IMG/VR virus record: IMGVR_UViG_3300025276_000089
Span: 1-35,016 of that record
DNA length: 35,016 nt
From: a virus
Strand: one strand, 5' to 3'
The notes beneath the pieces are model-generated. The model saw only the letters and a program-made list of their open reading frames with translations, was not told the origin of the DNA and ran no database searches. The position numbers were made by a program, and so were the translations under genes. This document shows, one piece after another, positions 2,681 through 34,743 of this stretch. Position 1 is the first letter of the stretch; each line of letters begins with the position of its first letter.

Positions 2681-3379
2681 ATGACCCGCCGCAAGCACAA
2701 AATGCAGCCCGCCCCGGTCCCCGCCGGTGACGTCATGGAGCTGCCCGCCAACGAACGCGGCGCCCCGCCCGAGGTGGTTGCGCAATACGATCGTGAGCAG
2801 GCCCGCCTTATCAACCCCCTGGCCAGCGACAAGGCCCGCGAGCAGGCTCGGCGTAACCTGGAGAACCTGGAAGCCAACCGGGCGCGTTGGGGCGAGAAGG
2901 CCTGGCAAGAACGAGCGGCGGCCGAGACCGAAGGCCTGGCCAAGGCGCGCGGCGAAGACGTGGCCCGTGACGGCGGTCGGATGCGGATTGTCAGCCGCGA
3001 TGGCCTTTACGCCGCCGCCCGCGCCCGCGATGGCCTGACGCAGCGCCAATATGAGGTCGGGGCGCGATACCGTGCGGGATGGCAGGCGCGCTCTGCGGAC
3101 GTGGGAAGCCAACTTGGGGCCGTGAGCGAGTCCAGCGCCGGCCACGACAACAACCGCTTCGTGGCGGCCCGCGCCCAACGCGCGATCAAGCTGCAGATCC
3201 TAGGCAAGATGGAGCGCGCCGTTGCGGTCCAATGCAGCTCAGAGCCTGCCTGTCTGCAAATGCTCCGCTGGGTTGCCGGGGAGGGCCATTCCCTGGCCAG
3301 CTTTGGCGAGGGCCGGGCCTACGAGCGCAACCTCCGCGCCCTTAAGCGAGCCCTAGACGTAGCGGGCACGGTGACGTGA
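2681..3379 (+). CDS. Possible phage late-gene regulator (DUF6456-like C-terminus)
   Basis: A 232-residue protein. ATG 2681 was chosen because an AGAGGTAAG ribosome site precedes it; the frame is open further upstream. Residues 35-95 are a charged helical or coiled segment. Residues 115-140 read RDGLTQRQYEVGARYRAGWQ, and the C-terminus (residues 190-230) has paired helices around MLRWVAGEGHSLASFG and NLRALKRALDVA. This order (a 'Q-x-x-AGxRYR' segment followed by a C-terminal helix-turn-helix-like unit) resembles the DUF6456-type regulators of alphaproteobacterial phages. Its place at the end of the early block is where a late activator or antiterminator would sit. Family assignment is by eye and uncertain. 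Confidence 0.5.
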   Translation: MTRRKHKMQPAPVPAGDVMELPANERGAPPEVVAQYDREQARLINPLASDKAREQARRNLENLEANRARWGEKAWQERAAAETEGLAKARGEDVARDGGRMRIVSRDGLYAAARARDGLTQRQYEVGARYRAGWQARSADVGSQLGAVSESSAGHDNNRFVAARAQRAIKLQILGKMERAVAVQCSSEPACLQMLRWVAGEGHSLASFGEGRAYERNLRALKRALDVAGTVT

Positions 3380-3454: not shown

Positions 3455-3667
3455 TCACCGCTTCTTCAACCGCGACCCATAGGCCGGCACCTCCCGCCCC
3501 ACTGGCAGATCCACCTTCACCCGCTCCGGCGCATCCAACCCCAGACGCAGCAGCGCGATAAGCGCCGCGTTCCGGGTCATGCCCCGACCAGCCGCCCAGC
3601 CTTCTACAGCCTCCAGCACATCAGCCGGAGGTCGGAACGATAGGGGCGGGGACTTCGGTTGAGCCAT
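3455..3667 (-). CDS. Ribbon-helix-helix (RHH) transcriptional repressor
   Basis: A 70-residue protein on the minus strand. Residues 9-45 (LSFRPPADVLEAVEGWAAG, then GMTRNAALIALLRLGL) fit the ribbon-helix-helix fold: a short strand with basic and aromatic residues, helix A, a G-x-T/S-R-N turn and a hydrophobic helix B. RHH proteins bind palindromic operators as dimers of dimers. A perfect 15-bp palindrome begins two bases upstream of the chosen ATG, so autoregulation is likely. It is divergent from the Acb2/Tad1-like gene at 3827, which suggests it represses that gene too, in the manner of anti-CRISPR-associated (Aca) regulators. A longer form beginning inside the palindrome is possible; no good ribosome site supports either start. 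Confidence 0.7.
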   Translation of the reverse strand: MAQPKSPPLSFRPPADVLEAVEGWAAGRGMTRNAALIALLRLGLDAPERVKVDLPVGREVPAYGSRLKKR

Positions 3668-3668
3668 G

Positions 3669-3687
3669 GGGATGTAATACATCCTCT
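3669..3687. promoter_or_regulatory. Candidate RHH operator, copy 1
   Basis: The 15-bp odd palindrome GGATGTAATACATCC occupies 3670-3684 and has seven perfectly paired bases on each side of a central A. The surrounding 19 bases (GGGATGTAATACATCCTCT) recur identically at 6493-6511. This copy touches the start of the RHH gene on the minus strand and faces the Acb2/Tad1-like gene on the plus strand. It is probably the operator through which the RHH protein controls itself; binding is inferred. Confidence 0.65.
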
Positions 3688-3826
3688 CGCGCCCGAGAGC
3701 ACCCCCCCCTTCGCGCCCAGCCCAACGCCTCAACATCCCAGAGGCGAGACCATCTCAGCCCTACACATGCGCGTTGGGGCTGCGGCGCGAGACTTCATCA
3801 GCCGGACAATCGAAAGGAGGTGCCCA

Positions 3827-4225
3827 ATGCGCACCCTGACTGAACACCGCGTCAACGCGGCGAACGACCGTCTTCAAATCACCGTGGCTGATGAGCCCGG
3901 CGCTGGTGGCGCGAGCCACTACTACGTCGTGAGCGGCTATGATCCGAAGGCGAACCCCTCGGTTCTGTCGCTTGGCGCCCCCGCCGGCCCGCACATCGGC
4001 ATCCTGTTTCAGAACGGCCCGATCAGCGAGGCCGGCATCAACGGTGTGACCCACGAGGCGCTGCTCGCCATTCTGATCGATCGGATGCGTAGCTTCCAAA
4101 CTGGCCCGTATTCGTGCCGTGAAAACGCGCTCGCCCTGACCAAGCTGGAAGAGGCCCAGATGTGGCTCCTTCAGCGGACCCGCGCCCGCATGTCGCGCGG
4201 CGTCGAGGGAGCCCACAAGGTCTAG
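3827..4225 (+). CDS. Acb2/Tad1-like anti-defence protein (cyclic-nucleotide sponge)
   Basis: A 132-residue protein with a near-perfect ribosome site (AAAGGAGGTG). The C-terminal region CRENALALTKLEEAQMWL, then QRTRARMSRGVEGAHKV (about residues 91-132) matches the helical hairpin of Acb2/Tad1-family proteins. The middle (ILFQNGPISEAGINGVTHEA, then LLAILIDRMRSFQ, residues 57-89) and the N-terminus (LTEHRVNAANDRLQITVADE) match the longer Tad1-like form. Known members bind and sequester the cyclic nucleotide or cyclic ADP-ribose signals of CBASS and Thoeris, so the host effector is never switched on. The gene stands alone between a divergent RHH repressor with its operator and a strong hairpin at 4235, as a self-contained anti-defence unit. 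Family assignment is by recognition; ligand is unknown. Confidence 0.75.
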   Translation: MRTLTEHRVNAANDRLQITVADEPGAGGASHYYVVSGYDPKANPSVLSLGAPAGPHIGILFQNGPISEAGINGVTHEALLAILIDRMRSFQTGPYSCRENALALTKLEEAQMWLLQRTRARMSRGVEGAHKV

Positions 4226-5894: not shown

Positions 5895-6392
5895 ATGGCA
5901 GAGCGTGGAGAGGCGAAGCTCACCGAAGAAGCCCGTGCCTATGTGGTTCAGGCCCTGGCCTGCTACGACGCGCCGTCTGTCGTGCGCGAGGCGGTCAAGA
6001 AAGAATTTGGCCTCACGATTACACCGCAGGCCGTCGAGGCATACGATCCAACCAAGCGAGCCGGCGCCAAGCTTTCCGAGAAGTGGAAGGTGTTGTTTGA
6101 GCGCACCCGCGAGGTCTTCCTTGAGGACACGGCCCGCATCGGAATTTCTCACCGCGCCGTTCGCCTCCGCGCCCTTCAGCGTATGGTCGACAAGGCCGAG
6201 AACATGAGCAACCTCGCTCTGGCCTCTCAACTGCTGGAGCAGGCGGCCAAAGAGGTCGGCGGGCACTACACGAACAAGCGCGAGTTCAGCGGCCCGAACG
6301 GCGGCCCGATCCAGACCTACGACCTGTCGAAGGCGGATGATGACGACCTGAAGAAGCTTGAGGCGTTGCTGGCTAAGGTGGCGCCGGAATGA
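5895..6392 (+). CDS. DUF2280 family protein, probable small terminase subunit
   Basis: A 165-residue protein. Residues 8-95 (KLTEEARAYVVQALACYDAP, then VVREAVKKEFGLTITPQAVE and a helix up to the RIGISHRAVRL region) match DUF2280, a helix-turn-helix domain encoded next to phage large terminases. The C-terminal part has a helix (MVDKAENMSNLALASQLLEQ), a GGHYTNKREF segment and an acidic tail. Small terminase subunits recognise the phage packaging site and present DNA to the motor. Unusually, the large terminase is not adjacent but about 4 kb away at 10375. Confidence 0.8.
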   Translation: MAERGEAKLTEEARAYVVQALACYDAPSVVREAVKKEFGLTITPQAVEAYDPTKRAGAKLSEKWKVLFERTREVFLEDTARIGISHRAVRLRALQRMVDKAENMSNLALASQLLEQAAKEVGGHYTNKREFSGPNGGPIQTYDLSKADDDDLKKLEALLAKVAPE

Positions 6393-6478
6393 GCGCGTCG
6401 GGGTTCTTCCTGAGCCAGGTACATCTCGCAGGCTACACCGAGGGGTTTCGCCAGCGGAACGATCAGCTCCCGACCTGA
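6389..6478 (+). CDS. Possible 29-residue coupled peptide
   Basis: A short frame starting in the ATGA overlap with the DUF2280 gene stop; it reads MSASGFFLSQVHLAGYTEGF, then RQRNDQLPT. The stop-start coupling is the main support. It may be the leftover start of a longer ancestral gene cut off when the accessory cassette entered. Low confidence. Confidence 0.3.
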   Translation: MSASGFFLSQVHLAGYTEGFRQRNDQLPT

Positions 6479-6492
6479 CCCCTCCACCGGGA

Positions 6493-6511
6493 GGGATGTA
6501 ATACATCCTCT
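6493..6511. promoter_or_regulatory. Candidate RHH operator, copy 2
   Basis: Identical over 19 bases to 3669-3687, with the perfect palindrome GGATGTAATACATCC at 6494-6508. It lies 70 bases before the first gene of the accessory cassette and 26 bases before the stem-loop element at 6537. It probably lets the RHH repressor encoded at 3455-3667 control the cassette promoter. Confidence 0.65.
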
Positions 6512-6536
6512 GGCCTAGGGCCGAACCTGCAAGCCC

Positions 6537-6560
6537 CGTCGAGATGACGCGGCGTTTCCC
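6537..6560 (+). promoter_or_regulatory. Repeated late-gene leader element, copy A
   Basis: Begins CGTCGAGATGACGCGGCGTT and ends in CCC. The same element precedes the capsid gene (15359) and tail-fibre gene (25577) at nearly the same distance from the start (41, 40 and 38 nt). The first 13 bases can form a 5-bp stem around an AGA loop. It may be a late promoter part or an RNA signal in the leader. Confidence 0.5.
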
Positions 6561-6577
6561 TGTGATGGAGGTCCGCC

Positions 6578-6781
6578 ATGCCGGCCTATCGCGACCCCGA
6601 ATCCCGACAGATCGTCTATCCGGATCGGTCCTTTCCCGGGGACCTTCCGCAGACCCTGGCCTATGACGGCTCTGGCAACCTCTCGACCATCACCGTCACG
6701 GATGGGACGAACACCTGGGTCCAGACCCTGACCTACACTGATGGAAACCTGACGGGCGTCAGCGCCTGGGTGAAGCAATGA
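6578..6781 (+). CDS. Small phage structural-type protein
   Basis: A 67-residue protein with a GATGGAGG ribosome site. The C-terminal half (LAYDGSGNLSTITVTDGTNT, then WVQTLTYTDGNLTGVSAWVK) is a short beta-rich unit with Tyr-Asp and Gly-Asn turns, a pattern I recognise from small genes near phage structural genes. It may be a decoration or adaptor module for the large protein encoded next, whose start overlaps its stop. First gene of the cassette between the terminase subunits; preceded by operator copy 2 and leader element A. Confidence 0.6.
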   Translation: MPAYRDPESRQIVYPDRSFPGDLPQTLAYDGSGNLSTITVTDGTNTWVQTLTYTDGNLTGVSAWVKQ

Positions 6782-8346
6782 GTGGGGTTCTTCGCACGCT
6801 GGGCGGGGATTTGGTGGTTGTCGATAACGCGGCGCGAGAGGGGGCGCTTGGAACGACCATCGCCAGCGTCGCGGCAGATGAGCCCGAAGACTTCGGCGCG
6901 ATTGTCCTGCGCGACAGCAACGACGCGGCCCTGATCGGCCAGGCCGCTGACGGTTCGGTCTCGCTGCGCCTTTCGCTGTGGAGCCTGAACAACGCCCAGC
7001 TTCACGCTTCCGCCGCGGAGGTGCGTGGGGCGTTTGGCCAATACAATGTGCTCCGCAGCACGACAACGGTGGATCCGGTGAGCGGCCAGCCGACGCAGGT
7101 TCGCTTTTTCAGCTACGACGACGCGGACGGGCAAACTTACAACGCACTGCAAAAGCGGGTGAGCTTCACCGATACGGCGCTGATCGACGGCAACGAGCCG
7201 CTTCCGATCTATGCCGTCTACGGTCAATCCAACGTCAGCGACGTTTTCGGCGGCGCTCCGGTGGAGACGGCTGCGCGATATCCCACCAAGCATGTCATGT
7301 TCTCCGCCAACAGCGCCTTCAACGGCGCGTCGAGCGCGGTGTTGGATGGCTCGACCCAGCAAGACATCCTGCCCGCGTCGGACGCTGGGCGCACATCGCA
7401 GTCGCTTTTCATTATGGCTGCGACGGCGCAGGAAGCGCTGGGCGTTGCTGCTGAGGAACGTTCGCAGGGCGGCCTGCATCTCTGCGTCTTCGAGGGTGGC
7501 CAGCAGCTCCCCGCCTTCGAGCAGGGGACCAACAACTATACCAACCTGATGACCGCCTACGAGCGCGCCGTAGAGGTCGCGGCCGACTATGGCCGGAGCG
7601 CACAGGTCAAGATCCTGACCTTGGTGCAGGGCGAGGCCGGGCCGTTCACGCGCTCGACATACGACACAACCCTGCAGGCGATCGTCGGCGATCTCGTGAC
7701 GGACATCAAGGCCATAACGGGCCAGGTTGCCGATCCCTGCGTGTTCGTTTGGCAGACCAATATTGGCGCCGCCGCGACGGCCAACGAGGCCCAGCTGGGT
7801 CAGTGGGACGCGACGGAGGCGCTGACTTCCACCACCCGACTTGTCGGCCCGATGTATCAGTTCCCCCTGGTTGATGAGGGCGCCACAGATATTCACCTGA
7901 CTGCCGCGTCTCGCATGATGCAGGGCGCTACGGAGGCTGATGCTCGACGCCGCTACCTGGCTGACGATTTCACGCCGGTTAAGCCTGTCTCGGCCATCCG
8001 GTCGGGCACAACCGTGGTGGTCACCTTCGATGGCCCAGGCGCGCTGTCCTTCGACGCGGATTGGGTCCTGGCGGCGACGGACTATGGCTTTGGCTGGGAG
8101 GGCGCGTCTGCGACCATCTCGTCCGTCACAATCACTGACACGCTTGAGGTGACCATCGAGCTGTCCACGGGCGAGGCCGGGGTTCTCACCTATGCAAGGA
8201 CCCGAGACGACCAGAACACGTGGGCGAGCCGCCGCGGCCAGTTGATGCACCAGACCTCGACGGTGAATCCCTTCTACACGCTGGGATACACCGTGCCGCA
8301 GTATATCCGCCACTACTGCATCGTCTTCGAAATGGATGTGTCCTGA
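6778..8346 (+). CDS. SGNH/SASA-type carbohydrate esterase, probable virion or receptor-processing protein
   Basis: A 522-residue protein. The block YAVYGQSNVSDVFGG (residues 145-159) carries the GQSN nucleophile motif (Ser151) of SASA/sialate O-acetylesterase-like SGNH hydrolases; LVQGEAG (282-288) matches the QGE block; DIHLTA (371-376) supplies Asp371 and His373 near the expected catalytic pair. Residues 1-135 and 390-522 look beta-rich and may be attachment domains. Such enzymes remove acetyl groups from surface polysaccharides. No signal peptide, so export would be by virion assembly or lysis. The neighbouring LamG-like protein supports a carbohydrate target. It is unusual to find it between the terminase subunits instead of with the tail genes. 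Confidence 0.75.
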   Translation: MSGVLRTLGGDLVVVDNAAREGALGTTIASVAADEPEDFGAIVLRDSNDAALIGQAADGSVSLRLSLWSLNNAQLHASAAEVRGAFGQYNVLRSTTTVDPVSGQPTQVRFFSYDDADGQTYNALQKRVSFTDTALIDGNEPLPIYAVYGQSNVSDVFGGAPVETAARYPTKHVMFSANSAFNGASSAVLDGSTQQDILPASDAGRTSQSLFIMAATAQEALGVAAEERSQGGLHLCVFEGGQQLPAFEQGTNNYTNLMTAYERAVEVAADYGRSAQVKILTLVQGEAGPFTRSTYDTTLQAIVGDLVTDIKAITGQVADPCVFVWQTNIGAAATANEAQLGQWDATEALTSTTRLVGPMYQFPLVDEGATDIHLTAASRMMQGATEADARRRYLADDFTPVKPVSAIRSGTTVVVTFDGPGALSFDADWVLAATDYGFGWEGASATISSVTITDTLEVTIELSTGEAGVLTYARTRDDQNTWASRRGQLMHQTSTVNPFYTLGYTVPQYIRHYCIVFEMDVS

Positions 8347-9077
8347 TGGCTCTGGTTTACAATGGCGCCGTGAGCCGGGCTGGGGCGCCGGCCCCTGGGT
8401 ATCTCGCGGCGCTGCTCGCCATCCCTGGCGCGCTGCACGTCTTCGACGCTGAGCACGTCACTCTGTCCGGGAGCGACATCGCGACCATGACGGACCTGTC
8501 GGGCTCTGGCCAGACGCTTGTTTTTCCATCCGGTCAGCGCCCGGCCCTGATCTCGGACGCTTTAAGCGGCCGGCCAGTGGCGCGTTTTTCCCGGTCGGAT
8601 CAGGACACGGGCACGCTCAGCGGCGACCAACCTGACCTTGCCGCCGCGTACACGCGCGTTCTGGTGTTCAAGCCGTCGACGCCATCGGCGGACTGGACCA
8701 TTGACGGCCGCTACACCGACGCCTCAAACCAAGACACCTTCCGGTGGGCGAACGCCGCAGCCAAGTGGCGCCACCGGCGCGGGACAACCGACTTCGACAT
8801 CGAGGGGATTGTCCCGGATCGGTGGAACACCGTCATGCTTGGTTTCGACGGGACCAATGTGCGCGACCGCGCCAACACCACGAGCATGACCACTCAGGCG
8901 TCCAGCGGCGCGGTTGGGAGCGGGGCCTATCGGATCGCCACGACAAATTCCGCCGCGCAGGCGCCCGAGATGGATTTGGCGATGGTCGCGGTGTTCGAAG
9001 CTTGCATCGTCAATGATGCTGATGCTCTCGCCGCCGTAGCGGCCTACGTCGGCGTCAAGTACGGGCTTCCGCTCTAG
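8346..9077 (+). CDS. LamG/concanavalin-like phage protein
   Basis: A 243-residue protein starting at a TGATG overlap with the esterase gene. The order of motifs fits the concanavalin/LamG-like jelly-roll proteins of phages: HVFDAEHVTLSGSDIATMTD (about 32-51), DLSGSGQTLVF, RPALISDALSGRPVARFS (66-83), then VFKPSTPSADW, and an ending AVAAYVGVKYGLPL typical of these domains. Members bind carbohydrates or decorate virions. With the esterase it probably forms a sugar-directed pair. Its stop codon shares four bases (CTAG) with the stop of the minus-strand gene that follows. Confidence 0.7.
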   Translation: MALVYNGAVSRAGAPAPGYLAALLAIPGALHVFDAEHVTLSGSDIATMTDLSGSGQTLVFPSGQRPALISDALSGRPVARFSRSDQDTGTLSGDQPDLAAAYTRVLVFKPSTPSADWTIDGRYTDASNQDTFRWANAAAKWRHRRGTTDFDIEGIVPDRWNTVMLGFDGTNVRDRANTTSMTTQASSGAVGSGAYRIATTNSAAQAPEMDLAMVAVFEACIVNDADALAAVAAYVGVKYGLPL

Positions 9078-10032: not shown

Positions 10033-10368
10033 ATGCGCATCCAAGTCCTGGCCCGCGGCGGCCTGTCGGTCTACGGCGCCGACTACGACGCCAAGCGCAA
10101 CGCTGCGACGATCAACCCCCTTGAGGGCGAGACGACGCCGGTCCTGATCGAGTACCCAGGCGCGCCGACATCGGTCACGACCGAAGGCAGCGGGCTTAGC
10201 GCCACGACCCCGACCGTCTCGGGATCTCAGCTCTCCACCACCATTAGCGGCGAGCGCGGCTATGTGGACATCACCGCGACCTTTGGAGGGGCGCGAAAGA
10301 CTATCCGCATTCAGTCCGGCCGCGTGGTTGATGACGACTATGGCATCCCGCTAGACGACTTCAACTGA
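10033..10368 (+). CDS. Small beta-rich phage protein
   Basis: A 111-residue protein starting three bases after the membrane-protein gene. It is rich in Thr, Ser and Gly with alternating strands (VLIEYPGAPTSVTTEGSGLS, then GYVDITATFGGARKTIRIQS) and an acidic end (DDDYGIPLDDFN). It looks like a single Ig-like or decoration-type beta domain. It ends six bases before the large terminase gene. Function unknown; a virion decoration role is inferred from fold type and place. Confidence 0.55.
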   Translation: MRIQVLARGGLSVYGADYDAKRNAATINPLEGETTPVLIEYPGAPTSVTTEGSGLSATTPTVSGSQLSTTISGERGYVDITATFGGARKTIRIQSGRVVDDDYGIPLDDFN

Positions 10369-10374
10369 TCCCCG

Positions 10375-11838
10375 ATGGCGATTAGTGCAAGCCGCCTGCC
10401 GACCCTTGAAGAGGTGAGGGCGGAACGGGCTAGGCGCGCGGCGCTGTGGAAGCCTCGGGACTATCAGCGGCCGCTCTGGGATTATCTCTTGGCTGGAGGC
10501 CGGCGAGCCGACGTCGCGGCGCATCGGCGTTGGGGCAAGGATGACGTAGCCCTGGCTTGGGCCAAGGAAGCGTCACAGCGCAGGGTCGGGGTCTACTGGC
10601 ACATGCTGCCGGAAGCCGCTCAGGCCCGCAAAGCCATCTGGGATGCGGTCAACCCGCACACCGGCAAGCGGCGCATCTACGAAGCGTTCGGCGAGCTGAT
10701 GGACGGCGCCGAGATCCGCAACACCGACATGTTCATCCGGTTCAAGAACGGATCGACATGGCAGGTTGTGGGGTCGGACAACTTCGACAGCCTGGTGGGC
10801 TCGCCGCCCATCGGGGTGGTCTTCTCCGAGTGGGCCATCGCCAAGCCCGACGCCTGGACCTACATCCGCCCGATCCTGGCCGAAAACGGCGGCTGGGCCA
10901 TCTTCATCTGGACGCCGCGTGGTCGGAACCATGCCGTCAGGGCATTCGAGGCCCGCGAGCGCGATCCGACGTGGTTCACGCAGCGGTCAACGGCCCTTCA
11001 GACCAGCGTCTTCACCATCGAACAACTGGACAAGGAGCGCCAGGAGTTCATCGACGAAACCGGGTCCGAGGAAGAGGGCGACGCCAAGTTCCGCCAAGAA
11101 TACCTGGTGGACTTCGACGCCGCGGTTCCCGGCTCCTACTACGGGACCGAACTGAAGAAGGCCCTGGACGAGGGGCGCATCACCGACGTTCCGCACATCG
11201 CCAGTATGCCGGTGGACACCGCATGGGACATCGGGGTCGATGACTACACCGCGATCTGGTTCTTTCAGGACAACGGCAAGCGCGTCCGGGCCATCGACTA
11301 TTTCGAGACCAACGGTGAGGGCGTCGAGGCCATTGTCCGCACCGCCATGCCGGAGCTTATCCCCGATCCGGTGGAGCGGGCCGAAGCGCTGGCGAAGCTC
11401 GGACGAACACAGCCCTACACCTATCGGAACCACTTCCTGCCCCACGACGTGAAGGTCCGGGAGTGGGGCGCCGGCGCAAAGACCCGGCTGCAAACCCTCC
11501 AAGGCTTCGGCGTCAAGCCGGTGCGGGTCGGTGTGCAGCAGGGGCCAGCCGAGCGGATCAACGCCCTGCGACGCCTCCTGCCGGTCATGTCGTTCGATGC
11601 GCACCGCTGCGCCGTTGGCCTCGACCGCCTGAGAAACTACCGCAAGCGTTGGAACCGCTCACTGGCGGCCTTCACCGAGCCCCTGCACGACGACAATTCC
11701 CACGGGTCCGACGCGGCCGGCGAATACGCCGTGAACAGCGCGATCATCCCGATGGTCAAACCACAACCGGCGCCGCCTCGCGACCGCTGGTCTCAGGCCG
11801 ATCAATCAGGAGGGAGGGCAGATTGGAAGACAGCTTGA
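10375..11838 (+). CDS. Terminase large subunit (DNA-packaging ATPase and nuclease)
   Basis: A 487-residue protein. The N-terminal ATPase has a deviant Walker A, HRRWGKDD (residues 50-57; the usual Ser/Thr after Gly-Lys is replaced by Asp), a Walker B GVVFSEWA (147-154) with catalytic Glu152, and a coupling motif IWTPRG (178-183). The RNase H-like nuclease half shows DTAWDIGVDDYTAIW (281-295) and HDDNSHGSDAAGEY (438-451), which supply the metal-binding acids. It pumps DNA into the prohead through the portal encoded next. The portal start lies 16 bases inside its 3' end. It is separated from the small-terminase-like gene by the accessory cassette. Confidence 0.9.
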   Translation: MAISASRLPTLEEVRAERARRAALWKPRDYQRPLWDYLLAGGRRADVAAHRRWGKDDVALAWAKEASQRRVGVYWHMLPEAAQARKAIWDAVNPHTGKRRIYEAFGELMDGAEIRNTDMFIRFKNGSTWQVVGSDNFDSLVGSPPIGVVFSEWAIAKPDAWTYIRPILAENGGWAIFIWTPRGRNHAVRAFEARERDPTWFTQRSTALQTSVFTIEQLDKERQEFIDETGSEEEGDAKFRQEYLVDFDAAVPGSYYGTELKKALDEGRITDVPHIASMPVDTAWDIGVDDYTAIWFFQDNGKRVRAIDYFETNGEGVEAIVRTAMPELIPDPVERAEALAKLGRTQPYTYRNHFLPHDVKVREWGAGAKTRLQTLQGFGVKPVRVGVQQGPAERINALRRLLPVMSFDAHRCAVGLDRLRNYRKRWNRSLAAFTEPLHDDNSHGSDAAGEYAVNSAIIPMVKPQPAPPRDRWSQADQSGGRADWKTA

Positions 11839-15358: not shown

Positions 15359-15382
15359 CGTCGAGACGACGCCGCATTCCCA
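15359..15382 (+). promoter_or_regulatory. Repeated late-gene leader element, copy B
   Basis: Begins CGTCGAGACGACGCCGCATT and lies 40 nt before the capsid ATG. Here the first 13 bases make a perfect 5-bp stem around AGA (CGTCG-AGA-CGACG), while copies A and C have a G-T wobble at the top pair. The paired position changes while pairing is kept, which hints at selection for the stem. Confidence 0.5.
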
Positions 15383-25576: not shown

Positions 25577-25600
25577 CGTCGAGATGACGCCGCAGCCCAA
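25577..25600 (+). promoter_or_regulatory. Repeated late-gene leader element, copy C
   Basis: Begins CGTCGAGATGACGCCGCAGC and lies 38 nt before the tail-fibre ATG. It is nearly identical to copies A and B in the first 17 bases, including the CGTCG-AGA-TGACG stem. Confidence 0.5.
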
Positions 25601-32097: not shown

Positions 32098-32379
32098 ATG
32101 GAAAACGATCCGGTTTTTGTGTTCGGCTCGAACCTGGCGGGCCGCCACGGCAAGGGCGCTGCGCTGTGGGCGCGCCAGAACCGAGGGGCCATCTACGGCA
32201 AGGGGATGGGCCTGCATGGTAATAGCTACGCGATCCCCACCAAAGACGAGAGAATCCGCACGCTGCCGCTTAGTATGATCGCTGACTTCGTGGGCTGCTT
32301 TCTCGCGGACGCGCGCTCAAGGCCAGACCTGACATTCCAGCTCACGCCTATCGGCTGTGGTCTAGCCGGCTATGGGTAG
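32098..32379 (+). pseudogene. A1S_2505-like phage protein, C-terminus cut off by inverted repeat
   Basis: The reading frame from ATG 32098 gives DPVFVFGSNLAGRHGKGAAL, then YGKGMGLHGNSYAIPTKDER and LTPIGCGLAGYG. This is the N-terminal two-thirds of a common phage protein of the A1S_2505 type, whose 'FGSN-x-x-GxHGxGAA' and 'SYAIPTKD' blocks resemble a macro-domain (ADP-ribose-binding) fold. In intact members the sequence continues well past 'GCGLAGY'. Here the TAG stop lies inside the 23-bp inverted repeat that begins at 32373, so insertion truncated the gene. An earlier GTG at 32065 could add 11 residues. Confidence 0.65.
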
Positions 32380-32395
32380 TGGGTCAGTTTGAATT
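32373..32395 (+). repeat. Left terminal inverted repeat
   Basis: Begins TGGGTAGTGGGTCAGTTTGA and matches the right end (34699-34721) perfectly in inverse orientation. It also supplies the premature TAG stop of the A1S_2505-like gene. The ten-base core GGGTCAGTTT recurs at 33267-33276 near the end of the IS1-family fragment. Confidence 0.85.
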
Positions 32396-32484
32396 CGCCC
32401 TCAATTGGACGAGGCTTGACCACGCGCGGAGTCGCGCTGCGCCTGCAATTCGCGGCGTTTCTGCTACAATGTCGGGATATCAGT

Positions 32485-32496
32485 GATAACGTTATC
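32485..32496. promoter_or_regulatory. LacI-type operator-like palindrome
   Basis: GATAACGTTATC is a perfect 12-bp palindrome with a central CG, as in LacI/GalR family operators. It lies in a 275-base interval (32396-32670) with no gene; the interval also has TTGACA at about 32580, upstream of the antitoxin-like gene. A similar 14-mer recurs at 33319-33332. Confidence 0.45.
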
Positions 32497-32670
32497 GCCA
32501 GCCCGGCGCGGGCAAGCGATCAAACGTAGAGAGCGTTTGCTCGTGCCATGAATCGCGCCCGGTGTCAATATCAGAACCCTTGACAGGGCCGGAACAAAGA
32601 CGACTTTCGGCCTGTTGGGCCAGTCTGGCCATTTTGGCCGCTGGCCTGTTTTACGCGAAAGGAGGTTGTA

Positions 32671-32835
32671 GTGGCAGCAATTGATCTAAGACGCTTGGGT
32701 CGCGCTACTGAACCCAGAACGGCGTCCTTGGACGCGTTTGTCGCGAAGGCGTATCGCAATTCGTCTCGACCCACGCCGGACCTGGTTCGGGTGATGAAGG
32801 CCTACGCGGACACGCAGAAGAAGCCCAATCCGTAG
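32671..32835 (+). CDS. Possible antitoxin of a GNAT toxin-antitoxin pair
   Basis: A 54-residue protein from GTG 32671 with a GGAGG site. It reads MAAIDLRRLGRATEPRTASL, then DAFVAKAYRNSSRPTPDLVR and a basic end. Its stop overlaps by one base the GTG of a GNAT-toxin-like frame (TAGTG), the usual layout of type II toxin-antitoxin operons in which the antitoxin comes first. I do not recognise the family; no ribbon-helix-helix is evident. The partner is truncated, so the system is probably dead. Confidence 0.45.
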   Translation: MAAIDLRRLGRATEPRTASLDAFVAKAYRNSSRPTPDLVRVMKAYADTQKKPNP

Positions 32836-33209
32836 TGCTGCCGTTTGATCCGGCGGATCTGAGCTATTCGCCGTTTTCAGCGGAGTGTGCCACGGCGAGC
32901 TTCTCCTGTGGTCAGGACACGGTTGATCGCTGGTTCAAAGAAAAAGCCAGCGGTCACCATGCCCGCCACAGGTGTCGGGTGACTACAGTCCACGCTCCAG
33001 ACGATCAAACGCCAGTCGCCTTCTACGCGCTAGCGGTCGTAGCTGAGCGCCTGACTGATCGGTGGGCGCTGATAGGCGCCAAGGGCCGCGCCCGCGTCGT
33101 TCAGCAGCTTCGCCACCGTGTTCTTGCTGGCTCCCGTCAGGCGCGTCACGGCGCGGATCGACATGCCCTCACACAGCAGATGGAGGATTTGGGCGCGTTG
33201 AGCTTGTGA
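32835..33209 (+). pseudogene. GNAT toxin (TacT-like), truncated by an IS1 fragment
   Basis: The first 70 residues from GTG 32835 match the N-terminus of toxin-type GNAT acetyltransferases: ASFSCGQDTVDRWFKEKASG, then HARHRCRVTTVHAPDDQTPV and AFYALAVVAERL. In TacT-like toxins this part is followed by the acetyl-CoA binding motif, which is absent here: from about 33055 the frame runs backwards through the IS1-family fragment and its residues are meaningless. Intact relatives (about 160-170 residues) acetylate aminoacyl-tRNA. The fragment should be inactive. Confidence 0.6.
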
Positions 33210-33221
33210 GAGCTTGTTCAT
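33030..33221 (-). mobile_element. IS1-family transposase fragment (N-terminal domain)
   Basis: Minus-strand frame from ATG 33221: MNKLSQAQRAQILHLLCEGM, then SIRAVTRLTGASKNTVAKLL and NDAGAALGAYQ. This is the helix-turn-helix N-terminus of the IS1-family transposases common in alphaproteobacteria. Intact proteins continue into a DDE domain with 'DEIWSF'; here the sequence breaks off after about 55 residues (near 33060), where it abuts the GNAT fragment. The IS end probably lies near 33267-33276, where GGGTCAGTTT occurs. Confidence 0.6.
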
Positions 33222-33317
33222 GGCTCAACCATATAACGCATGACGCATATCGGTCAAGCATAAGGGTCAGTTTAAAGATGAGTCATCTCAAGCCCTTGTC
33301 CCAGAAGGGAAAAGAGT

Positions 33318-33346
33318 TTGACAACGTTATCATTTGGGGGGATATT
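33318..33346 (+). promoter_or_regulatory. Promoter-like site overlapping a LacI-type operator
   Basis: TTGACA (33318-33323), a 17-base spacer and GATATT (33341-33346) form a sigma-70-like promoter on the plus strand. The palindrome TGACAACGTTATCA (33319-33332; one mismatched pair) overlaps the -35 box and spacer, as expected of a repressor site. No gene follows in that direction; it points into the 3' end of the tRNA gene. It looks like a promoter separated from its gene by rearrangement. Confidence 0.4.
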
Positions 33347-33350
33347 CCGA

Positions 33351-33427
33351 TGGCACCCAGGCCGGGATTCGGACCCGGAACCTCCGCCTTAGCAGGGCGG
33401 CGCTCTGTCCCATTGAGCTACCTGGGC
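33351..33427 (-). tRNA. tRNA with GCU (serine) anticodon but class I body
   Basis: The minus strand folds as a full cloverleaf: acceptor GCCCAGG/CCTGGGT (first pair G-T), D arm GCTC/GAGC, anticodon arm CCGCC-CTGCTAA-GGCGG, variable loop AGGTT of only five bases, T arm CCGGG-TCCGAAT-CCCGG, discriminator G and an encoded CCA. The loop CTGCTAA gives anticodon GCU, reading serine codons AGC/AGU. True bacterial tRNA-Ser has a long variable arm, needed by seryl-tRNA synthetase; this one lacks it. The T loop also has C in place of the usual T at position 55. Charging and function are open. Confidence 0.85.
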
Positions 33428-33718
33428 GCATCGGACGGGGCACCAGGCGAGGCGCCGAGGGGCGGCTACCCCTCGACACCAAGCCCGGTGATCAGTCCAA
33501 CAAAACGGGCCGGTAACGCACCGCAAGCCCTCCTTTTCTTTGCAATGTCAGCGCTGGACGGTCCCTTCGGGAATCGCCCAGCTTTGTCTGTTATGCGCTC
33601 GGCGCTTGTCGCCGTCAACCGTGTGCGCGTCCTATACGCCGACAAGCGCAACGGTCGTTGACGGACCAACGATCTCGGAGCATAAGCCATGAACACCAAC
33701 GGACGTGGATAGCCGACC
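33428..33718. other. Intergenic stretch between the tRNA and the gene at 33719
   Basis: No supported gene is seen in these 291 bases. A TTGACG...CATAAG pair with 17-base spacing (about 33657-33685) may be the promoter of the gene at 33719. A seven-codon frame (MNTNGRG, from about 33690) may be a leader peptide. Confidence 0.4.
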
Positions 33719-34225
33719 ATGGACGACTTCGAAGAGTTCACCCGCGACCGGATCGCGCGCCTTCGCGCCGAAGCCGACGCGCTCGATAAGACACTCAAAG
33801 AGTACCTGAGCGCCAAAAACCGGCAGGTCGGACAAACTCGCCGGTCCGGCCCCGATCAACCGCGCAGCGGCGCATTTGGCGTGGTCATGGAGGCTATCGC
33901 CAACGCTGGTCCAGAGGGGCTCACGCTTGACCAGATGATCGACGCGGCGGCGGCGGAGGGCTTCACGGTCAAGCGCAATACGCTGCGCTCTCAGGTCTGG
34001 CAGGCGAAGAACGACAGCGAGCTAGTGGCGCTTGAGGCGGGAAGATATCGCGCAGCGAGTGCAACGCCTTCGTCGAGCCCTCGCGCTGACGACGACACGT
34101 GGGGCCAGTTCTCTTCGCCGGCAGCCGTTAGGAAGCGTGAGCGACCTGCAACCTTTCAACAAACTGTTGGCACGATGAGGCCCAGCGCTGAGTCCGACGA
34201 TCTAGACGACGAAATTCCGTTCTAG
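33719..34225 (+). CDS. Coiled-coil and winged-helix protein of unknown function
   Basis: A 168-residue protein. Residues 3-33 form a charged coiled-coil helix (EEFTRDRIARLRAEADALDK, then TLKEYLSAKN). Residues 50-115 look like a winged helix (FGVVMEAIANAGPEGLTLDQ, MIDAAAAEGFTVKRNTLRSQ, VWQAKNDSELVALEAGRYRA), a type common in alphaproteobacterial genomes. The tail is Ser-rich and acidic (DDLDDEIPF). Probably a DNA-binding accessory protein. Its stop shares CTAG with the minus-strand gene that follows. Confidence 0.6.
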   Translation: MDDFEEFTRDRIARLRAEADALDKTLKEYLSAKNRQVGQTRRSGPDQPRSGAFGVVMEAIANAGPEGLTLDQMIDAAAAEGFTVKRNTLRSQVWQAKNDSELVALEAGRYRAASATPSSSPRADDDTWGQFSSPAAVRKRERPATFQQTVGTMRPSAESDDLDDEIPF

Positions 34226-34449
34226 TCTTTCGCCCAACGCTTCGCGGCGGCCTTCCTGGCGATCTCAGACCGCTGCTCTGGCGTCAGGGATTCTGCGCGC
34301 GCCTTACCACCCTTCAAGCCGCCAGACCGCCCGAGTTCACCCATAGGGGACAGCTCGGGCGCTTTGCGTTCCGGCTCTTCGCCGGTGGCAATGTCTACAA
34401 TCAGCCTCGCCAATTCATTGGCGTCGCGCGGGCGTTTCGGATTCGGCAT
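34222..34449 (-). CDS. Small basic protein with histone H1-like / AK-rich tail
   Basis: A 75-residue minus-strand protein. The first half (MPNPKRPRDANELARLIVDI, then ATGEEPERKAPE) is a short helix and linker; the second half is a GRSGGLKGGKARAESLTPEQ, then RSEIARKAAAKRWAKD segment, a motif seen in small alphaproteobacterial proteins and resembling DNA- or RNA-binding basic helices. It is second in a two-gene minus-strand operon (TGATG overlap with 34449-34643). Often such pairs ride on mobile elements; function unknown. Confidence 0.65.
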   Translation of the reverse strand: MPNPKRPRDANELARLIVDIATGEEPERKAPELSPMGELGRSGGLKGGKARAESLTPEQRSEIARKAAAKRWAKD

Positions 34450-34643
34450 CAGACCGGCGCTCCCGTGGACATGGCTCGCCAGAAATCGGTGACGTTCAAG
34501 ACGACCCCTTTAGGCGTCAGGATGGTCACGTTTCTCGCAGCGTTCTTTTCGAACTCAAGCCCCGCCGCATAGGCAAGGTTGGGTGTCGGCGCGCCCACGC
34601 GCTCTGTGCGATCCATGAACTCGGCGGTTACGAGATATTCCAT
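34449..34643 (-). CDS. Small protein, partner of the basic protein downstream
   Basis: A 64-residue minus-strand protein (MEYLVTAEFMDRTERVGAPT, then PNLAYAAGLEFEKNAARNVT, ILTPKGVVLNVTDFWRAMST). It looks like one alpha-beta domain. Its stop overlaps the start of the basic-protein gene by one base (TGATG), so the two are co-expressed. Two-gene size and overlap recall toxin-antitoxin pairs, but no known family is recognised. Confidence 0.55.
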   Translation of the reverse strand: MEYLVTAEFMDRTERVGAPTPNLAYAAGLEFEKNAARNVTILTPKGVVLNVTDFWRAMSTGAPV

Positions 34644-34698
34644 CTCGCCACTATAGCGGCTCCCCCCTGCGCGCGTAAGCGGTGGTCAAGCCCGTCCA

Positions 34699-34721
34699 AA
34701 TTCAAACTGACCCACTACCCA
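34699..34721 (-). repeat. Right terminal inverted repeat
   Basis: Perfect inverse copy of 32373-32395. Read inward on the minus strand it begins TGGGTAGTGGGTCAGTTTGA. Only 22 bases separate its outer end from the start codon of the host helicase gene. Confidence 0.85.
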
Positions 34722-34743
34722 AATCCCGTTAGGAGTCGCAGCC

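Follow-up and report, generated by a model that had tools for sequence, protein, structure and literature searches.

Two copies of a palindromic sequence, at an RHH-type regulator gene and ahead of a late-gene region, are putative operators in a phage genome

Why would a phage genome carry the same 19-base sequence in two places 2.8 kb apart, once at the start of a small regulator gene and once ahead of a gene cassette and the packaging genes? The window analysed here is an entire IMG/VR record of 35,016 bp. An earlier note on this DNA had counted exactly two copies, judged them unlikely to be a product of chance and linked both loci to one regulator. Two exact copies of GGGATGTAATACATCCTCT are indeed found, at 3669-3687 and 6493-6511, both on the plus strand, and the window holds no others at up to three mismatches. 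The chance expectation, from 100 dinucleotide shuffles, is 0. The core of both copies, GGATGTAATACATCC, is an odd palindrome of the form GGATGTA-n-TACATCC, with 7-base arms and an A at the centre. As this centre base is unpaired, 14 of the 15 core positions are palindromic, and the earlier description of a 15-base perfect palindrome was slightly overstated. The shorter motif TGTAnTACA does not occur elsewhere in the window. The pair of sites is thus real and specific. The features discussed below are listed in Table 1.

Table 1. Positions of the two sites and of the genes and elements around them in the window.
Feature	Coordinates	Strand	Remarks
RHH-type regulator gene	3455..3667	-	70 aa, MAQPKSPPLSFRPPAD...; PHROG 4738; Pfam RHH_5 below cut-off; conserved in relatives
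Site 1, operator copy (predicted)	3669..3687	.	Palindrome 3670-3684; conserved before ATG in all relatives
Acb2/Tad1-hairpin (anti-defence-like) gene	3827..4225	+	Pfam Acb2_Tad1_hairpin, E 1.7e-7; divergent from RHH gene
DUF2280 gene, small-terminase position	5895..6392	+	Pfam DUF2280, E 1.3e-42; upstream of site 2
Intergenic block with site 2 and leader element	6469..6570	+	92% identity to prophage
Tentative promoter	6475..6502	+	CTGACC, 16 nt, TGTAAT; second hexamer inside palindrome
Site 2, second operator copy (predicted)	6493..6511	.	Palindrome 6494-6508; prophage counterpart differs at centre base
Late-gene leader element CGTCGAGATGACGCGGC	6537..6553	+	Common to capsid gene and gene 25615
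First cassette gene	6578..6781	+	67 aa; ORF; no family match above cut-off
Cassette gene, tail-fibre-like	6778..8346	+	PHROG 4201 tail fiber, E 2.7e-38
Cassette gene	8346..9077	+	243 aa; no family match
111-aa gene	10033..10368	+	Kept between cassette and terL in prophage
Large terminase gene, terL	10375..11838	+	PHROG 2, E 3.7e-22; downstream of cassette, same strand

The product of the regulator gene is probably an Arc/Mnt-like RHH protein. Its match to PHROG 4738, annotated as 'transcriptional repressor', has an E value of 1.8e-5. The match to Pfam RHH_5 is below threshold (14.9 bits against a cut-off of 26), and by sequence match the curated cut-off for the RHH (MetJ/Arc) superfamily is not reached; RHH_5 is matched by four of seven relatives, at best with an E value of 0.0085. 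A structure model of moderate confidence (mean pLDDT 65) has two helices, at residues 15-28 and 32-45 after an N-terminal stretch, which are the positions expected for an RHH protein. Foldseek matches of the model include Arc, AmrZ and CopG, all with E values above 1, and a sequence search of the PDB with the RHH profile gave no match. Compared with this profile, P22 Arc has 29% identity over 34 residues and P22 Mnt 28% identity over 46 residues, including SFRPP against NFRMP in Mnt; the alignment covers the strand and the helices. The strand residues S10 and R12 are invariant among the relatives.

These relatives are encoded on seven IMG/VR contigs and in one Phenylobacterium MAG, where the gene is part of a prophage; we found none in isolated phages or plasmids. 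The most diverged is that of locus L137, with 73% identity to the protein of the window. Other Caulobacteraceae genomes gave four weak, distant RHH-like genes, and the two that were examined, in L141 and L142, have no matching palindrome. The L141 gene (1474-1683) encodes a 69-aa protein whose C-terminal tail, DRPAYGSRLKKR, is common with the phage RHH proteins and whose N-terminal strand differs.

Site 1 ends 2 nt before the ATG of the RHH gene, which begins at 3667 on the minus strand. A site at the same distance is kept in all seven viral contigs and in the Phenylobacterium prophage, slightly altered in one of them; the palindrome thus stands before the ATG in all relatives, as at an autoregulated phage repressor with an operator at its own start. 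The 17 nt preceding the ATG are invariant in six of seven distinct loci, and 15 of the 17 are kept in L137. Over the next 53 nt upstream only 19-29 positions match the window, and inside the gene itself up to 24 of 49 codons carry synonymous differences. L137, which encodes the most diverged protein, is also the locus with the altered palindrome arm. Protein and site may have changed together there, as far as a single case can suggest. A -10-like stretch, TATTAC (3679-3674), lies inside site 1 and ends 6 nt before the ATG. The RHH transcript is probably leaderless. This fits with what is known from Caulobacter, where leaderless messages are common and 375 have been found (PMC4117421).

The sequence at site 1 could in principle be kept for other reasons than binding. 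An in-frame ATG inside the site, at 3682, would add MYYIP to the RHH protein, and a short hairpin can form from the palindrome on either strand, so that the sequence might be conserved as coding for this extension or as an RNA hairpin at the starts of messages. We give this explanation hardly any credence. The invariant GG before the inner ATG falls outside the extended reading frame, and the z-scores of the hairpin are only about -1.7. For site 2 the coding explanation is ruled out, because no RHH gene follows that site and the corresponding strand of the prophage reads ATG-TAG.

A search of IMG/VR with GATGTAnTACATCCCCATG gave six contigs, all of them RHH loci. Among 390 Caulobacteraceae genomes, roughly 1.4 billion bases, GGATGTAnTACATCC was found in one genome, twice, with both copies inside the RHH prophage. 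It should be noted that from base composition we estimate about one chance match in 1.4 billion bases, and therefore the telling point is the pairing with the RHH prophage. The earlier note had counted many copies across the host genome as an argument against its proposal. In the 3.5-Mb Phenylobacterium genome, allowing one mismatch, we found only the two prophage copies. A host-wide regulon is ruled out, as 389 of the 390 family genomes lack the palindrome. Among eighty loci with terminase relatives, ATGTAnTACAT was absent except from a phage that is the same as that of the window, and the terminase relatives without an RHH gene have no operator palindrome. An 18-mer scan of IMG/VR for further examples of site 2 gave a single new match, L348, which was rejected as a chance match.

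Two large and unrelated rumen-phage contigs, IMGVR_UViG_3300031994_000011 and IMGVR_UViG_3300028805_000070 (loci L078, L018, L036 and L021), carry 38 and 15 copies of the palindrome with at most one mismatch, the former mostly at 152.9-171.8 kb and the latter at 14.4-19.6 kb. Most of these copies are extended to TTGGATGTAATACATCCAA and lie between a terminator-like sequence and a consensus promoter. Where a good promoter could be recognised, resembling TTGACA-N17-TATAAT, the palindrome ends most often 10-12 nt and sometimes 20-23 nt upstream of it. Most commonly the -35 is 11 nt away, and in a second group of copies it is about one helical turn more distant. The rumen copies look like a dense regulon, and their spacing is activator-like. 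The two contigs gave no RHH relative, so the palindrome alone does not identify its reader, and another reader is possible.

Could, then, another protein, of host or phage, read both sites in the window as well, with the RHH gene merely one of its targets? The dozens of copies of the same 15-mer in the rumen phages would agree with this. A host regulator, however, should have host targets, and in the host-family genomes the site occurs only where the RHH gene does; moreover, the RHH gene keeps the site amid unrelated upstream contexts. We therefore regard another reader in these phages as improbable. The proposal of one regulator for the two loci holds to the extent that the repeat is specific and that its conservation and co-occurrence tie it to the RHH gene.

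It does not hold for the anti-defence link. The earlier note had described the first locus as an RHH/anti-defence node. The Acb2/Tad1-hairpin gene adjoins the RHH gene only in the window and in a near-identical phage, and is absent from that place in the other RHH loci compared; the neighbours differ in loci L134, L136, L125, L109 and L087. Gene order in the relatives thus rules out that RHH and anti-defence genes form a conserved pair. The hairpin gene may begin at an in-frame ATG at 3767, and its product, possibly a cyclic-nucleotide sponge, has an N-terminal extension relative to the hairpin domain.

What is kept in the loci examined is the position of the RHH gene: it is the sole gene on its strand there, opposite to that of its neighbours, with replication genes (DnaB-like helicase) on one side and packaging genes on the other. 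Its convergent neighbour encodes a NusG domain in three relatives (L136:10967-11575, L109:1407-1988 and L137:3333-3875, all on the minus strands), and thus a transcription elongation or antitermination factor may occupy this slot. In the window the same early-side slot is taken by gene 2681-3379, which matches no family; the convergent neighbour in the prophage and in L087 likewise encodes an unnamed protein. The prophage of Phenylobacterium seems to be complete; reading its sequence by eye, we noted an integrase-like gene at about 60.6-61.7 kb, and also repressor-like and Cro-like genes at about 50 kb. Given the latter, the RHH protein is unlikely to be the master repressor of lysogeny. At the far end of the window, a 2.3-kb segment (32362-34732) is bounded by terminal inverted repeats of 34 nt that are 88% complementary. 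Inside it are a tRNA-Ser gene (33351-33427, minus strand) and two ORFs, one acetyltransferase-like and the other of an insertion-sequence-like HTH type. The sequence past 34740 looks chromosomal by eye.

Site 2 ends 66 nt before the start codon at 6578. The second copy in the Phenylobacterium prophage, GGATGTAGTACATCC, has intact arms and a changed centre base, and is found at the homologous place, after the small-terminase slot. The DUF2280 gene of the window is assigned to that slot from its position before terL. Site 2 is part of a block of about 100 bp that is conserved between window and prophage although the genes on both sides are unrelated. Within this block, a -35-like CTGACC (6475-6480) and a -10-like TGTAAT (6497-6502) give 9 of 12 matches to a promoter (p 0.019 by shuffles); a score this high or higher was reached in 9 of 998 sequence windows. 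A stricter scan calls no promoter at site 2, and the promoter is therefore tentative.

This setting could also mean that only site 1 matters, as an autoregulatory operator, and that site 2 is carried along in a recombination joint for the late modules, with little or no effect on the cassette. A module joint would be conserved between unrelated genes in just this manner. Site 2 is found in two phage lineages only, and a related phage contig of 50.9 kb, which also carries an RHH gene, has site 1 and no site 2. Against such a passive role, neither lineage has changes in the arms of site 2, with variation confined to the symmetric centre, and the promoter-like pair overlaps the site in the window. 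On balance, we consider a mere joint rather unlikely.

In the window, site 2 is followed by a cassette whose tail-fibre-like product (6778-8346) also has a weak carbohydrate-esterase match (Pfam SASA, E 0.0043, below cut-off). In the prophage, a 109-aa and a 229-aa gene replace the esterase cassette, and the same 111-aa gene and terL then follow. The earlier note had named the esterase cassette as the second target. Since the genes directly after site 2 are a variable slot, unrelated between the two phages, the late operon is a more probable conserved target than the esterase. The site would be better described as standing at the start of that operon, from which transcription would run into the terminase-portal region.

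A second repeat points in the same direction. The 17-base element CGTCGAGAYGACGCSGC occurs at 6537-6553, 15359-15375 and 25577-25593, in each case 38-41 nt ahead of a start codon, namely those of the cassette, the major capsid gene and gene 25615. The prophage has it at each of the three homologous places, and a more distant phage (L148) has two copies. The element may act as a late promoter or form a leader hairpin; covariation in support of an RNA hairpin is weak and not decisive. Its presence ahead of both the cassette and the major capsid gene suggests one late class for the two.

Based on these observations, we consider it fairly likely that both sites are operators of the RHH protein, which would be an autorepressor that also controls the late unit, from a swappable tail-fibre/esterase cassette into terL. 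Autorepression at site 1 together with repression of the late unit at site 2 would be the simplest mechanism. The binding, repression, promoter positions and timing that we infer are as follows. In brief, an Arc/Mnt-like RHH dimer would read both palindrome arms at either site. At site 1, the protein would repress its own, probably leaderless, transcript, since the predicted operator includes the -10-like stretch, and this would keep its level low and constant. At site 2, it would cover the -10-like stretch of the promoter that starts the late transcription unit, that is the variable cassette, then terL, portal and the rest. The transcript starts are predicted at the A of the RHH ATG (3667) and near 6509. 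The late genes would thereby be held down in a lysogen or early in infection. Relief would probably come from convergent early transcription through the RHH gene, or else from a regulator encoded in the neighbouring early slot.

We further speculate that this RHH family of alphaproteobacterial temperate phages, encoded between early genes (NusG-like in some) and packaging genes, is a dedicated late-gene lock. It would act through two operators, one at the start of its own gene and the other at a position of exchange for host-interaction cassettes, and convergent early transcription would release it. In this general form the idea is doubtful, though conceivable. If true, newly acquired cassettes would come under RHH control on arrival. 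An uncharacterised phage regulator here gains a predicted binding site that is precise to the base, and a second target. If our reading is right, temperate phages of Caulobacteraceae would have a simple and separate late-gene control, located at a point of cassette exchange.

Several known systems resemble this arrangement in part. Arc and Mnt of the immI region of Salmonella phage P22 are encoded by small RHH repressor genes in the late genome half, and their operators overlap adjacent promoters (annotation of NC_002371); the gene described here is, by prediction, of the same kind. In P22, Arc and Mnt have different operators that lie together in a single intergenic region, and an antirepressor gene is under control, whereas here one predicted operator sequence is found twice, with 2.8 kb between the copies and the second ahead of a putative late operon, and no antirepressor gene was seen near the RHH gene. 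RHH antitoxins such as RelB repress their own promoter through an operator (PMC2812701), and an operator at the own promoter is predicted here as well. Unlike in those systems, no toxin gene was seen adjoining the RHH gene in the gene order of the loci examined, and the second site is in another transcription unit. The anti-CRISPR-associated (Aca) families described in two reports (PMC9410906, PMC9410881) are helix-turn-helix proteins encoded in an operon with an acr gene. Aca repressors and the present case have in common a phage repressor gene near an anti-defence-like gene and inverted-repeat operators, both the repressor and the operators being predicted here; in this case, however, an RHH-like protein is encoded, divergently from the anti-defence gene, and the association with that gene is not conserved.

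The stoperators of mycobacteriophage L5 are many asymmetric sites spread over the genome and read by one repressor. The likeness is that one repressor, here a predicted one, has the same sequence as its target at multiple places of a phage genome. The sites here are symmetric and at the putative starts of transcription units, and number two in the window and two in the prophage-bearing genome. Judging from the sequences, it is plausible that their arrangement is a variation on well-known phage repressors, with an unusual second target.
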